This document shows, piece after piece, positions 10,890 through 14,928 of a stretch of 18,149 nucleotides of DNA. The stretch comes from Candidatus Binatia bacterium (lineage in GTDB: Bacteria; Desulfobacterota_B; Binatia; UBA9968; JAJDTQ01). The notes beneath the pieces are model-generated. The model made no database searches. It was given only the letters and a program-made list of their open reading frames with translations, and was not told where the DNA came from. How positions within the stretch are numbered: position 1 is the first letter of the stretch; each line of letters starts with the position of its first letter. Position numbers and translations under genes: made by a program. The DNA is taken from NCBI GenBank assembly GCA_022827045.1, contig JAJDTQ010000271.1, positions 1-18,149 of the forward strand, given 5' to 3'.

Positions 10890-11090
10890 TCGCCCAATCG
10901 AAACCACCGATGCGCCTACCCTTCTCCACATCCCCTGACGCACCTCCCCTTCCGACGATAATCACGCTAACCTGGACCCTCTTTTGCCGACTCCCCTTAA
11001 CCGCCGACGACCAATGATACATCTCCACTAGAAGCCTCGCGCCCGAACCTGTATACTCGTTTCCAGCCATCTCTTTGAAAGGCACCTACA
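10890..11090 (+). promoter_or_regulatory. Left flank of the accessory island with candidate promoter
   Basis: A 201-bp spacer with lower GC than the preceding genes. A TATACT hexamer at 11052-11057 is a plausible -10 for the four-gene cassette, but the -35 position (TAGAAG around 11029-11034) is weak. AAAGG at about 11078-11082 can serve as the ribosome-binding site for the ATG at 11091. No tRNA, direct-repeat attachment site or insertion-sequence end is apparent. Confidence 0.35.
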
Positions 11091-11729
11091 ATGCCCTCTA
11101 CGCTTCCCTACATGTTGTCAACAGGGCTAATCCCCAAAATCCTCGAAAAGATCCAAAATGCCCGGAGACCAGACCGATTCACGCAGGACTTTCTTGAAAC
11201 AAAACTAGGGCACAGCGGCGGCGGCGCGCGTCCCATTATACCGCTGTTGAAACGGATGAAGTTTCTCGGCTCAGATGGCGTTCCGACTCCTCTTTACGAC
11301 CAGTTCCGTAACACCGAGACTCACGGCTTCGCGATTGCTCAAGGGATGAAGAACGCTTTCGGTGAACTATTTGATCGAAATGAATATATCTACGACATGT
11401 CGTCCGATAAGTTAGTAGGACTCGTTGTCGAAATCACCGGTGGTACAAAGGAGAGTAGGCTCACCCGGGGCATCGTTGGAACGTTTCTAGCACTAAATGA
11501 GTTGGCGACCTTCGACGCAGAGCCGCCGATAGCACCGCCCGGGTTAACATCGGACGAGGCCAATTCACTGCCACCCCTGCCTGACGCGAAGACCCCACCG
11601 ATGACCAATAGCGAAAACATCGAATTCAGGGTTGGATACACCATCAACTTAAATCTCCCCGAGACCACCAACCCGGAAGTATTCAACGCAATCTTCAGAG
11701 CGCTCAGGGACAATCTGCTGAGGAACTGA
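11091..11729 (+). CDS. DUF5343 domain protein, first gene of a putative defence cassette
   Basis: A 212-residue protein. Its first 120 residues match the DUF5343 pattern as I recall it: LPYMLSTGLIPKILEKIQ, RFTQDFLETKLGHSGGGAR, IIPLLKRMKFLGSDGVPTPLYDQFR, then MKNAFGELFDRNEYIYD. The arrangement suggests a winged-helix-like N-terminal half, possibly for DNA or partner binding. A proline-rich linker (about 145-172) follows, with a short C-terminal strand-helix segment (EFRVGYTINLNLPETTNPEVFNAIFRAL). Family members are uncharacterised and often found in accessory or defence regions. The stop overlaps the next gene's ATG (TGATG at 11727-11731), so translation is probably coupled. AT-richer codons set it apart from the efflux genes. 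No catalytic motif is evident. Confidence 0.82.
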   Translation: MPSTLPYMLSTGLIPKILEKIQNARRPDRFTQDFLETKLGHSGGGARPIIPLLKRMKFLGSDGVPTPLYDQFRNTETHGFAIAQGMKNAFGELFDRNEYIYDMSSDKLVGLVVEITGGTKESRLTRGIVGTFLALNELATFDAEPPIAPPGLTSDEANSLPPLPDAKTPPMTNSENIEFRVGYTINLNLPETTNPEVFNAIFRALRDNLLRN

Positions 11730-12310
11730 TGCCTAAAGAAAGCCCGATAAGATTCTTTGGGTTGAATAACTTGGCTATAGAATCGAAAATACGACAGGTT
11801 GAAAGGGAGTATGACGTCGATCTTGGTCACACAGAGAGTCACGAACACAGGACGGATCAGACGTACTATCCGCAGTTCAGCGAGCGCCTGCGTGCTGAAG
11901 CCTCTCGTATGACGACGAACTATGCTATCTTTTACTGTCCTGAGAACAGCATTCGGGAGGTAATCGTCCAGCGGTTGGAGGAGCAACATGGTGCCGGGTG
12001 GTGGAACACGGCGGTGCCGGAGAACGTCCGCAAGAACGCGGAGGCAAACCGAAAAAAGGAAGTCTCCTCAGGTGTCACTCCACGATCTACAGAGGAGATT
12101 GATTTCACCACATTCGGGGAACTGAGCGAGATTATCAAAACCAATTGGGATATGTTTGGTGACATGTTTCGCGACCTTCGCGCTGTCGAAAAAGTTCTTG
12201 CGACTCTCAACACACTCAGGGCACCGATAGCGCATTGCAAAGCTCTGGCAGAGGATGAGGAATTGCGATTGCATCTTGGATTGCGTGACTGGTTCCGACA
12301 GATGGAGTAG
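11729..12310 (+). CDS. Swt1-family HEPN-domain protein (putative RNase)
   Basis: A 193-residue protein matching the Swt1-type HEPN domain. The recognisable core runs from about residue 63 (NYAIFYCPENSIREVIVQRLEE) through GWWNTAVPENVRKNAE and IDFTTFGELSEIIKTNWDMFGDMFRD to NTLRAPIAHCKALAEDEELRLHLGLRDWF. The HEPN active-site motif R164-x4-H169 is intact (RAPIAH), so metal-independent RNase activity is plausible. A charged N-terminal stretch of about 60 residues precedes it. There is no PIN or other added domain, unlike eukaryotic Swt1. It starts inside the DUF5343 stop codon. No minimal nucleotidyltransferase antitoxin of the usual HEPN partner type is adjacent. The neighbours suggest it is the RNA-cleaving or sensing part of a multi-gene system. 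Confidence 0.85.
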   Translation: MPKESPIRFFGLNNLAIESKIRQVEREYDVDLGHTESHEHRTDQTYYPQFSERLRAEASRMTTNYAIFYCPENSIREVIVQRLEEQHGAGWWNTAVPENVRKNAEANRKKEVSSGVTPRSTEEIDFTTFGELSEIIKTNWDMFGDMFRDLRAVEKVLATLNTLRAPIAHCKALAEDEELRLHLGLRDWFRQME

Positions 12311-12851
12311 CGCACTGCACGTCCAGTTCTCTACATTCCCGCGCACGCGACCCCCGGCTAGTTTCGTTCCTAAGATCGTGGCAGTATTCGAACGGCACGC
12401 GGACGAAATCGATACAAGTCAGCTAAAGAAGGGTCTCACTAGCGACCAGACGCTCGCCTTGCTCCGATCGGATCTGGTAACACTGGGGTTTGACGTCGAA
12501 ATGGGTAAGCGCGACCAAGACAAAATCAGGCGCCCTGTGTTCTTCGGCGAGAATGCACAGCCGGAACTTCAGTACGAAATCGACGCGTGGCACCCGGGGT
12601 GGAGGGCTGGCCTCGAAGTTGAAGCCGGGCGAGCGTGGATGGGTAACGCCATTTATCGCGACCTTGTGCAGGCCCTGGTGATGGTCGAAATGGACTACCT
12701 ACTCCTCGCAGTCCCGAAAACCTACCGTTACAAGACCAGGGGGAAGGCGAGAATCAGTAGGAATTACGACAACACCGTGTCTGTCGCTCAAGCCCTTTAT
12801 GGCCACTCGCGCATCGCTATGCCGTTTTCACTCTGCGTCATAGGGTATTGA
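12255..12851 (+). CDS. Putative restriction-endonuclease-fold protein with ExE-type active site
   Basis: A protein of up to 198 residues that I do not recognise by a formal family name. The conserved-looking region runs from FSTFPRTRPP (about 25-34) through KGLTSDQTLALLRSDLVTLGFDVEMGKR to YEIDAWHPGWRAGLEVEAGRA and NAIYRDLVQALVMVEMDYLLLAVP. E82, D110 and E121-x-E123, followed by alternating strand and helix, fit a PD-(D/E)XK nuclease fold with an ExE variant (as in BamHI) instead of ExK. The start is unclear. The ATG at 12255 overlaps the HEPN gene by 56 bases. GTG at 12285 is possible. A CTG at 12315, placed after GATGGAG, would begin just before the conserved region and remove the overlap. 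Nuclease activity is inferred. Confidence 0.7.
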   Translation: MRNCDCILDCVTGSDRWSSALHVQFSTFPRTRPPASFVPKIVAVFERHADEIDTSQLKKGLTSDQTLALLRSDLVTLGFDVEMGKRDQDKIRRPVFFGENAQPELQYEIDAWHPGWRAGLEVEAGRAWMGNAIYRDLVQALVMVEMDYLLLAVPKTYRYKTRGKARISRNYDNTVSVAQALYGHSRIAMPFSLCVIGY

Positions 12852-12870
12852 GGTGTCTGGGAAAGACACC
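12852..12870 (+). promoter_or_regulatory. Perfect hairpin at the junction of the two nuclease-like genes
   Basis: GGTGTCT (12852-12858) and AGACACC (12864-12870) pair perfectly around GGGAA, starting one base after the upstream stop codon. The hairpin contains the GTG start (12853) of the next gene and ends just before an in-frame GTG-ATG (12871-12876). It could tune translation of the last gene or limit read-through. Function is inferred from position only. Confidence 0.4.
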
Positions 12871-13476
12871 GTGATGGAACCGATACCGAAGTTGGACGTC
12901 AGAAGGAAGACTGGCGACGAGCCGTTTTACTCTGCTGGATCAGCGAGGGGCTTCGGCTTGCTTGACTACTGGCAATGGGCGAACTCGGACCTTGTCGGCA
13001 ACGTCACCCGAGGTGTTCTGGCCGAGTTCATCGTGGCTCGTGCCGTGGGCATCGCCACAGATGGGGTTCGCGACGAGTGGGCTCCGTATGACCTGGAAAC
13101 GCGTGACGGGATCAAGCTTGAGGTCAAGTCGGCGGCGTATATTCAGAGTTGGTCGCAACAGCGCTTCTCGGATATCCGCTTCGGTACGAAAAAGACTCTT
13201 TTGTGGGACCCCGAGACCAACACCCACGACACGGAGCCAAGACGCAAGGCAGATGTCTACGTGTTCGCTCTCCTGAAACACAAGGACCACTACACGATCG
13301 ACCCGCTGAACCTCGACCAGTGGACGTTCTTTGTCCTTCCCACAGCGGAACTGGATGAGCGGGAGGACAGCCAACATTCGATATCGCTGCCGGCGTTGGA
13401 GAAACTCGCATCGCCCGTCACCTTCGATGAACTCGGCGGTGCGATGCGAAAGGCTTACAGATCACGCCGTCGTTAG
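12853..13476 (+). CDS. Putative PD-(D/E)XK nuclease, last gene of the cassette
   Basis: A protein of up to 207 residues with no family name I can give. A nuclease signature is readable: E58 in RGVLAEFIVARAVG, then D80 in YDLETRDGIKLEVKSA with E90-V-K92, and Q102 in SWSQQR. The D-x9-ExK spacing and the strand around LEVKSA are characteristic of the PD-(D/E)XK fold. RKADVYVFALLKHKD and DQWTFFVLPTAELDER are consistent with later core strands. GTG at 12853 starts one base after the upstream stop; ATG at 12874 (MEPIPKLDV) is an alternative lying just past a hairpin. It probably acts with the three genes before it. The Doc toxin gene ends 40 bp downstream on the opposite strand. Confidence 0.75.
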   Translation: MSGKDTVMEPIPKLDVRRKTGDEPFYSAGSARGFGLLDYWQWANSDLVGNVTRGVLAEFIVARAVGIATDGVRDEWAPYDLETRDGIKLEVKSAAYIQSWSQQRFSDIRFGTKKTLLWDPETNTHDTEPRRKADVYVFALLKHKDHYTIDPLNLDQWTFFVLPTAELDEREDSQHSISLPALEKLASPVTFDELGGAMRKAYRSRRR

Positions 13477-13516: not shown

Positions 13517-13915
13517 TCAGGTCTTGAGTCCCCGGCGGAACCAGCCAGCGAGATCGGCCTCGCGGATACGGCCGCCAGCGACGTCTTCCATCGTACGGAT
13601 TGCGTCCAACGGGTCGAACTGCAGCCGCTGACCGTTGTCCGCGAGGAACAGGCGCGCGGTCACCCAAGCCGTTCGCTTGTTACCGTCGATGAAGCCGTGG
13701 TTGTTGGCGAGGCCATAGGCATACGCCGCTGCCAAGTCGGCTATATCAGGGCTGCCATAAGCCGCGAGGTTCAAGGGGCGAGCGAGGGCGGATTCGATCG
13801 CCTTGAGGTCGCGGATACCGTCCGGCCCCCCGTGCTCGGCGAGTTGACGGTCATGGATGGCCAGCACGACATTCAGGCCAACCCAGCGCCACTGACTCAG
13901 ATCGTCCTGACTCAC
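13517..13915 (-). CDS. doc: Death-on-curing (Doc) family toxin
   Basis: A 132-residue Fic-fold toxin of the Doc type. The signature H73-G-F75-I-D77-G-N79-K80-R81 matches HxFx(D/N)(A/G)NKR, with lysine where true Fic AMP-transferases have glycine. In characterised Doc this corresponds to phosphorylation of elongation factor EF-Tu, which blocks translation. The start is GTG (13913-13915), overlapping the antitoxin stop (TGA at 13912-13914 on the minus strand). The antitoxin is therefore translated first and the pair is coupled. Length is normal for Doc. All key residues are present, so the toxin is probably functional. It converges with the nuclease-like cassette. Confidence 0.93.
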   Translation of the reverse strand: MSQDDLSQWRWVGLNVVLAIHDRQLAEHGGPDGIRDLKAIESALARPLNLAAYGSPDIADLAAAYAYGLANNHGFIDGNKRTAWVTARLFLADNGQRLQFDPLDAIRTMEDVAGGRIREADLAGWFRRGLKT

Positions 13916-14139
13916 TTCGACAGCGCCCGCAGCACCTCGCGATCATCATGCATGATATCTTCGGCGAGGGCCATCTGGCGTGCAAAGTCAGGATCGTACG
14001 GGGTGAGCCGGTAGCCCCCGTCCGGCGCTTCGGTCAGGTATAGCGTGTCCCCCTTCTTCACCTTGAGGCGAGCCATCGCCTCTTTGGTGAGAATGACACC
14101 GGAAGATGCCCCTACAGTGGTCACTTTGAACGACAGCAT
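13912..14139 (-). CDS. AbrB/MazE/SpoVT-type antitoxin paired with Doc
   Basis: A 75-residue antitoxin. The N-terminal half (SFKVTTVGASSGVILTKEAMARLKVKKGDTLYLTE) is a swapped-hairpin AbrB/MazE-type DNA-binding domain. The C-terminal half (YDPDFARQMALAEDIMHDDREVLRALS) is an acidic, probably toxin-wrapping tail. It differs from the Phd/YefM fold of the classical Phd-Doc pair. The ATG at 14137-14139 has an AGGAGG ribosome-binding site 6 bases upstream. A perfect inverted repeat at 14149-14170 lies just upstream and is the likely site of autorepression. Its stop overlaps the Doc start. Confidence 0.9.
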   Translation of the reverse strand: MLSFKVTTVGASSGVILTKEAMARLKVKKGDTLYLTEAPDGGYRLTPYDPDFARQMALAEDIMHDDREVLRALSK

Positions 14140-14338: not shown

Positions 14339-14671
14339 CTATTCGAGGATGGTGGCCAAGCGGGCAAGCACATCGTCGATGATGTGTTCGGGGACGATTT
14401 CGAGGAACTTCCCTTTCCGTGCGGACAGGTCAAGGGTGCGGGGCTGATCGCAACGGATCACGCCGGTGGTTCGGGTGCCTGCGCCCTCGAGAGAAACGGC
14501 GAAGCCGCGTCTGCGTGCGAAGCCTCCACCCGTGGTGATGGGCAAGACGACCGGCGTCCCGGTCAGGTCGTTGAAGGGAGCAGGGGAAACGATCAGTACC
14601 GGGCGGGTGCCCTGCTGTTCATGGCCGGCAGCGGGGTCGAGGTTGACGAGCCAGATGTCACCCCGCTTCAC
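14339..14671 (-). CDS. PemK/MazF-family endoribonuclease toxin
   Basis: A 110-residue toxin of the PemK/MazF family, which cleaves mRNA at short sequence motifs and arrests growth. The diagnostic N-terminus KRGDIWLVNLDPAAGHEQQGTRPVLIVSPAPFN is complete, including the R and G residues of the active region. The middle segment TPVVLPITT and the later TGVIRCDQPRTLDL (with the conserved RCDQPR) are also present. The start is GTG (14669-14671), sharing one base with the antitoxin TAG. Length is standard and nothing is truncated. The cleavage motif cannot be predicted by eye. Confidence 0.94.
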   Translation of the reverse strand: MKRGDIWLVNLDPAAGHEQQGTRPVLIVSPAPFNDLTGTPVVLPITTGGGFARRRGFAVSLEGAGTRTTGVIRCDQPRTLDLSARKGKFLEIVPEHIIDDVLARLATILE

Positions 14672-14928
14672 TACAGCAGCTCTTTGCCCACAGGCTTGGC
14701 GTCAAGCCAGGCGCGATCCTCTGAGGAAGGGGTTTCGTTTTCGTCGCACTGGGCCAGTAGCTCATCGAGCGAGTAGCGTGGACGCGCCTTGGGCTCGATG
14801 ACCAGGCGTCCCTTCTCCACGTCGATATCCACCTTGGCTCCCACGCGGAGGTTCAAGAGGTCGAGGAGGGCCGGAGGGACCGCGAGCATGACGGAACCGC
14901 CGACCTTGCGCAGGTTTGTTGTGTGCAT
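14671..14928 (-). CDS. MazE/PemI-type antitoxin
   Basis: An 85-residue antitoxin for the downstream PemK-like toxin. The N-terminal domain (TTNLRKVGGSVMLAVPPALLDLLNLRVGAKVDIDVEKGRLVIEPK) is a clear AbrB/MazE DNA-binding fold, closest in style to ChpS/PemI. The C-terminal tail (YSLDELLAQCDENETPSSEDRAWLDAKPVGKELL) is acidic and probably occupies the toxin's RNA-binding groove. The ATG at 14926-14928 has GGAGG close upstream. A perfect inverted repeat at 14942-14959 marks the likely autoregulatory operator. TAGTG overlap with the toxin indicates coupled translation. Confidence 0.93.
   Translation of the reverse strand: MHTTNLRKVGGSVMLAVPPALLDLLNLRVGAKVDIDVEKGRLVIEPKARPRYSLDELLAQCDENETPSSEDRAWLDAKPVGKELL

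Follow-up and report, generated by a model that had tools for sequence, protein, structure and literature searches.

Do four tightly packed genes in the genome of a Candidatus Binatia bacterium constitute one anti-phage system, or are they separate units that have come to lie side by side? The genes, designated g1 to g4, occupy positions 11091–13476 of an 18,149-nucleotide stretch of DNA (GenBank assembly GCA_022827045.1, contig JAJDTQ010000271.1), the whole of which is referred to here as the window. A sequence-only reading had proposed an undescribed defence operon, and the four packed plus-strand open reading frames (ORFs) that it described are present, at 11091–11729, 11729–12310, 12255–12851, and 12853–13476, with the stop of g1 overlapping the start of g2 as TGATG. 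With the starts preferred here, the genes are:

11091–11729, plus strand: g1, PDC-M34A, a DUF5343 protein proposed to control g2
11729–12310, plus strand: g2, Swt1-like HEPN protein with R164-x4-H169, PDC-M34B; proposed ribonuclease (RNase) effector
12315–12851, plus strand: g3, fold of a BglII/BamHI-type restriction endonuclease; CTG at 12315 the probable start, the ORF from ATG 12255 also being open
12874–13476, plus strand: g4, PvuII/BisI-like nuclease fold; probable ATG start at 12874, the ORF from GTG 12853 also being open

The likeliest reading is that g1–g2, a two-gene module able to stand by itself, has been joined in one bacterial group by two nucleases that elsewhere occur singly. 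The preferred description, to which about an even chance is given, is that of a composite defence cluster gained by horizontal transfer, with a PDC-M34 core and two solitary restriction-type deoxyribonucleases (DNases). The account rests on computation throughout: families, folds, conserved catalytic residues, the absence of a methylase among the window genes scanned, the stand-alone occurrence of g1–g2, and the recurrence of the g2–g3 junction were computed, and from these we infer every activity, a controlling role of g1 over g2, transcription as one unit, and anti-phage function.

The first two genes belong to families already on record. The DUF5343 pattern noticed in g1 is borne out by Pfam (PF17278, 4.9e-43), and the protein matches protein A of PDC-M34 in PADLOC (PDLC04589, 6e-46). 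Likewise, g2 is a HEPN_Swt1 protein (PF18731, 6.9e-12) that matches protein B of the same system (PDLC04592, 1.2e-40), adjoining the A match in the same order; its Rx4-6H motif is intact, R164 and H169 being kept in 119/119 relatives listed, query excluded. PDC stands for 'phage defence candidate' (PMC11514479). In HEPN/MNT toxin modules, too, a partner gene accompanies an Rx4-6H HEPN protein, but the partner of g2 is DUF5343 and not a nucleotidyltransferase. Neither PDC-M34 nor DUF5343 is named in the papers searched. The PDC-M34 profiles cover neither g3 nor g4, and the PADLOC accession following the PDC-M34 B models is already PDC-M35A. Hence, the idea of a wholly undescribed four-gene system was rejected, since g1–g2 is catalogued, and the earlier reading was not right to treat the whole combination as unrecognised, its first half being PDC-M34. 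That parts of known kinds are combined here in a new way is plausible.

The pair was sought in draws of species genomes with either the PDC-M34B model or g2 as a single query. The model matched in 5/289 genomes of one class and in 3/35 g3-holding genomes (from 35 of 46 g3 loci), never beside g3; the single query matched in 3/61, 7/390, and 15/397 genomes of three orders. Some of these matches are weak and lie inside much longer frames, and the 21 g2 loci taken are those of full or nearly full length, one of them (L102) a broken copy; weaker matches, among them L103 after inspection, were excluded. A g1 match accompanies g2 at all 21 loci and lies directly upstream in the 19 that were drawn (L138 and L102 were not drawn, and L140 is cut by a contig end). 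Judged by sequence, g1–g2 is a self-contained two-gene unit, because g1 is present at every one of these g2 loci and g3 and g4 were found at none. The broken copy (L102:7563–7941) carries one internal TGA and one TAG; the module also decays.

A defence role for g1–g2 is supported by its appearance in a variable slot between two ribosomal protein genes. At L129 (5626–9053), the pair separates rplW from rplB within the S10 ribosomal operon, gene names being assigned by sequence recognition. The rplW–rplB gap spans 603–3853 bp, with varying cargo, in 11 of the 14 loci of one genus (that of G717) in which both genes were found, namely L129, L165–L171, L173, L174, and L176. Besides g1–g2, the cargo includes, at L167, a SMODS cyclic-nucleotide synthetase (3.7e-34) and, at L173, a SocA/Panacea antitoxin (8.9e-21). 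In 4/11 slot loci, the 3′ end of rplW is partly duplicated downstream, over 72–92 nt. No account of the slot was found in the papers searched.

The structure model of g3 has the fold of a BglII/BamHI-type restriction endonuclease, resembling the type II enzymes BglII, BstYI, BamHI, and OkrAI, although g3 has no sequence match to them and no cognate methylase was found in the window. Residues E82, D110, E121, and E123 (numbered from ATG 12255) are invariant among the relatives listed, in a comparison made by sequence, and E121-x-E123 is kept in 120/120. This E...D...ExE arrangement may correspond to that of BamHI, the active site of which has a glutamate in place of a lysine (PMC4081073). The g4 model, in turn, has a PvuII/BisI-like fold with active-site residues E58, D80, E90, and K92 (numbered from GTG 12853), of which the last three are kept in 119, 119, and 120 of 120 relatives listed. 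With PvuII and the BisI family (NhoI, Eco15I), g4 shares fold, helix glutamate, aspartate, and a (D/E/Q)xK motif; NhoI and Eco15I, however, have QxK, whereas g4 has E90-V-K92, and the glutamate recurs in 119/120 relatives. Cutting confined to multiply methylated GCNGC is a further mark of the BisI family. The ExE and D-x9-ExK signatures picked out by the sequence-only reading are thus conserved and sit in modelled nuclease folds. Both families are large, with 1183 relatives found for g3 and 2207 for g4, and the Pfam copy searched matches neither.

No cognate methyltransferase was found among the 18 window proteins scanned with Pfam, and so the nearby methyltransferase by which classical type II restriction-modification is recognised is lacking for g3 and g4. 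BisI enzymes are likewise without a methylase partner (PMC11347163), a trait that g4 shares. Elsewhere, g3 mostly has no listed methylase next door, in tallies that list 25 of 81 and 25 of 79 neighbour families; MTaX1/N6_N4_Mtase families do occur in these tallies. At L014, L017, L025, and L026, a common downstream neighbour of about 1260–1280 amino acids is helix-turn-helix plus DNA-methylase-like by cluster, and it is possible that this protein is a methylase partner for some g3 proteins.

Relatives also inform the gene starts. In the ATG-12255 numbering, 74 of the 120 g3 relatives listed start at residue 21, 14 at residue 20, and 16 at or before residue 1; residues 1–20 are modelled with a predicted local distance difference test (pLDDT) score below 50, and residue 1 of BglII pairs with residue 21 in the structure alignment. 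Codon 21 is a CTG at 12315, 4 nt beyond the g2 stop, and, because these three observations agree, it is probably the true start of g3. The sequence GGAG (12304–12307) sits 7 nt ahead of this rare start codon, in a stretch that doubles as the end of g2. For g4, 82 of 120 relatives listed start at residues 7–8 and 21 at residue 1 of the GTG-12853 frame; therefore, ATG 12874, 22 nt beyond the g3 stop, is the likelier start on sequence comparison. The g2/g3 coding overlap and one-base g3/g4 gap proposed earlier are probably wrong, while the tight same-strand packing of four genes stands. A single operon had been called almost certain; the packing agrees with this, but a shared transcript is inferred from it and consensus scans lend no help. 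These gave three promoter-like sites against 1.5 expected, one of them preceding g1 (10935–10962), and two terminator-like sites against 3.5 expected.

Among metagenomic relatives, the set recurs in part, as the g2–g3 junction indicates. The junction test covered the 21 listed g3 relatives that are extended N-terminally by 8 residues or more, and its signature is that the extension, read in its second frame, can encode the g2 tail, [R/K]QME-stop, ending five codons ahead of the FSTFPR landmark, exactly as in the window; RQME ends 111/120 g2 proteins listed (window g2 included), and FSTFPR is absent in 18/120 g3 relatives, which cannot be placed in the test. The junction recurs in 3/21: P0001 (a cluster of 12 contigs), P0002, and P0027, all close metagenomic relatives. 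Only 19 of 20,000 random 20-mers permit the g2 tail. A longer tail motif fits P0001 and P0027 and fails in P0002. Shared contig sizes suggest g2–g4 and g3–g4 linkage among metagenomic relatives: one g2 relative and one g4 relative lie on contigs of 26,796 bp (controls average 0.07 for sizes above 4,000), and the top-ranked sizes of 1,534 bp (at ranks 3 and 1) and 2,128 bp hint at g3–g4 and g2–g3 linkage, respectively. Sizes of 1,461, 3,358, 710, 1,134, and 1,817 are also common to relative lists, matching by size being indirect; among short sizes, roughly one coincidence per pair of lists arises by chance. The families are rare, with the g2 model in 5, g3 in 4, and g4 in 1 (distant) of 289 genomes each in class-wide draws; these rates are slightly biased, the g3 count including two genomes first reached via g3 (G016, G035). 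Joint presence within 2.4 kb by chance is unlikely.

Several results weigh against a functional composite. The sequence-only reading held that homologues almost never co-occurring would refute it; this is the case in the sampled species genomes, but not among the close metagenomic relatives described above. In the species genomes, g3 or g4 was found at 0/21 g2 loci (4.2–7.3 kb of downstream sequence in 20 loci and 0.5 kb in L136), and g1, g2, or g4 at 0/46 g3 loci, of which 36 have at least 2 kb of sequence on both sides. Shared contig sizes other than 26,796 bp are near chance, and the consensus scans gave no promoter or terminator evidence for a single operon. Structural likeness is modest, the template modelling (TM) score being 0.51 for g3 against OkrAI and about 0.4 for g4 against NhoI, and sequence searches of g2, g3, and g4 against solved structures returned no nuclease. 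The four-gene set is a local combination and not how any member usually occurs.

Carriage of the cassette by phages or plasmids was considered and rejected. IMG/VR scans with g2 (as a single sequence only) and g3 found no relative; that with g4 found 40, at 33%–50% identity, with no match to g1, g2, or g3 in the accompanying DNA. Among plasmids, g2 had one distant match (29.5%), g3 none, and g4 14 records, and the g4 surroundings on two of these are unrelated genes. Base composition fits acquired DNA: guanine-plus-cytosine (GC) content is 50%–52% in g1–g2 and 56%–58% in g3–g4, and 57%–71% at third codon positions (GC3) of the four genes, against 66% in the left flank and a GC3 of 90%–93% in three flank genes.

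Under the composite reading, g1 would keep the HEPN RNase g2 silent and report an infection-linked signal; freed g2 would cleave RNA, arresting the infected cell, and g3 and g4 would attack incoming DNA. Because no methylase was found in the window, self-tolerance would require that g3 and g4 act on modified DNA only or depend on a host methylase elsewhere.

The strongest competitor, which has perhaps half the appeal of the composite reading, is that g1–g2, g3, and g4 are independent units accreted without shared function in an island beside two toxin–antitoxin pairs. Such pairs do adjoin the cassette, as the sequence-only reading had stated, downstream and outside it:

13517–14139, minus strand: Doc-family toxin with antidote (TIGR01550, 2.8e-16; TIGR02609, 1.5e-16)
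14339–14928, minus strand: MazF/ChpB-like toxin with MazE/ChpS-like antitoxin (PF02452, 3.3e-30; PF04014, 3.3e-07)

Accretion is favoured by the finding of each of the three units alone elsewhere and by the upward step in GC from g1–g2 to g3–g4; it sits poorly with a g2–g3 junction kept in the same register in several relatives and with the lack of any other gene between the four. The two minus-strand pairs, lying back to back, have a GC content of 62%–63%, closer to the flanks than to the cassette.

The EcoprrI type I restriction complex holds the HEPN protein PrrC latent, PrrC being a guard behind EcoprrI. An Rx4-6H HEPN protein near restriction genes recalls this arrangement, and the HEPN pair could similarly guard the DNases, so that g1 senses the blocking of g3 and g4 by phage anti-restriction and unleashes g2. 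The tight packing, the recurrent junction, and the HEPN proteins reported in restriction operons (PMC3710099) point this way. Even so, such coupling is unlikely, because g1–g2 stands alone at every sampled locus; g3 lacks g1–g2 at all 46 of its own, and no type I restriction genes were found among the window proteins scanned. Just as improbable is a layered operon that would pair two type II-like nucleases of different folds, lacking a methylase and probably dependent on modification, with a DUF5343–HEPN pair: the nucleases would cut phage DNA, and the pair would watch over them and kill the cell upon their failure; here the guard would stand behind solitary type II-like proteins, and not behind a type I complex. 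Least probable is a plain addiction module followed by two selfish or decayed restriction genes: a two-gene order with a toxin-like HEPN second gene at many unrelated sites, and no methylase for g3 or g4 among the window genes scanned, would suit it, but g3 and g4 catalytic residues are kept in 119–120 of 120 relatives and PADLOC catalogues g1–g2 as a defence candidate.

The defence setting proposed earlier is plausible under the composite reading. Should the four genes protect together, PDC-M34 and DUF5343 would gain a function, and RNA and DNA cutting would be stacked within 2.4 kb. Even without joint protection, two large Pfam-unmatched families can be assigned to the BglII/BamHI-like and the PvuII-like nucleases, and the usual lack of a listed methylase beside g3 raises a testable question, namely what stops such enzymes cutting their own host.

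Around the cassette, only short imperfect repeats that might mark its insertion were found, and no structured RNA reached gathering scores. The flanks are ordinary: on the left lie genes for a molybdopterin-binding protein, for which no match in 85 genomes exceeds 52% identity, a cupin, a carbon-nitrogen hydrolase, DUF2848, a luciferase-like monooxygenase, an amidohydrolase, an HMGL-like protein, HlyD, and a major facilitator superfamily (MFS) transporter, and on the right lies a VIT/VWA protein.
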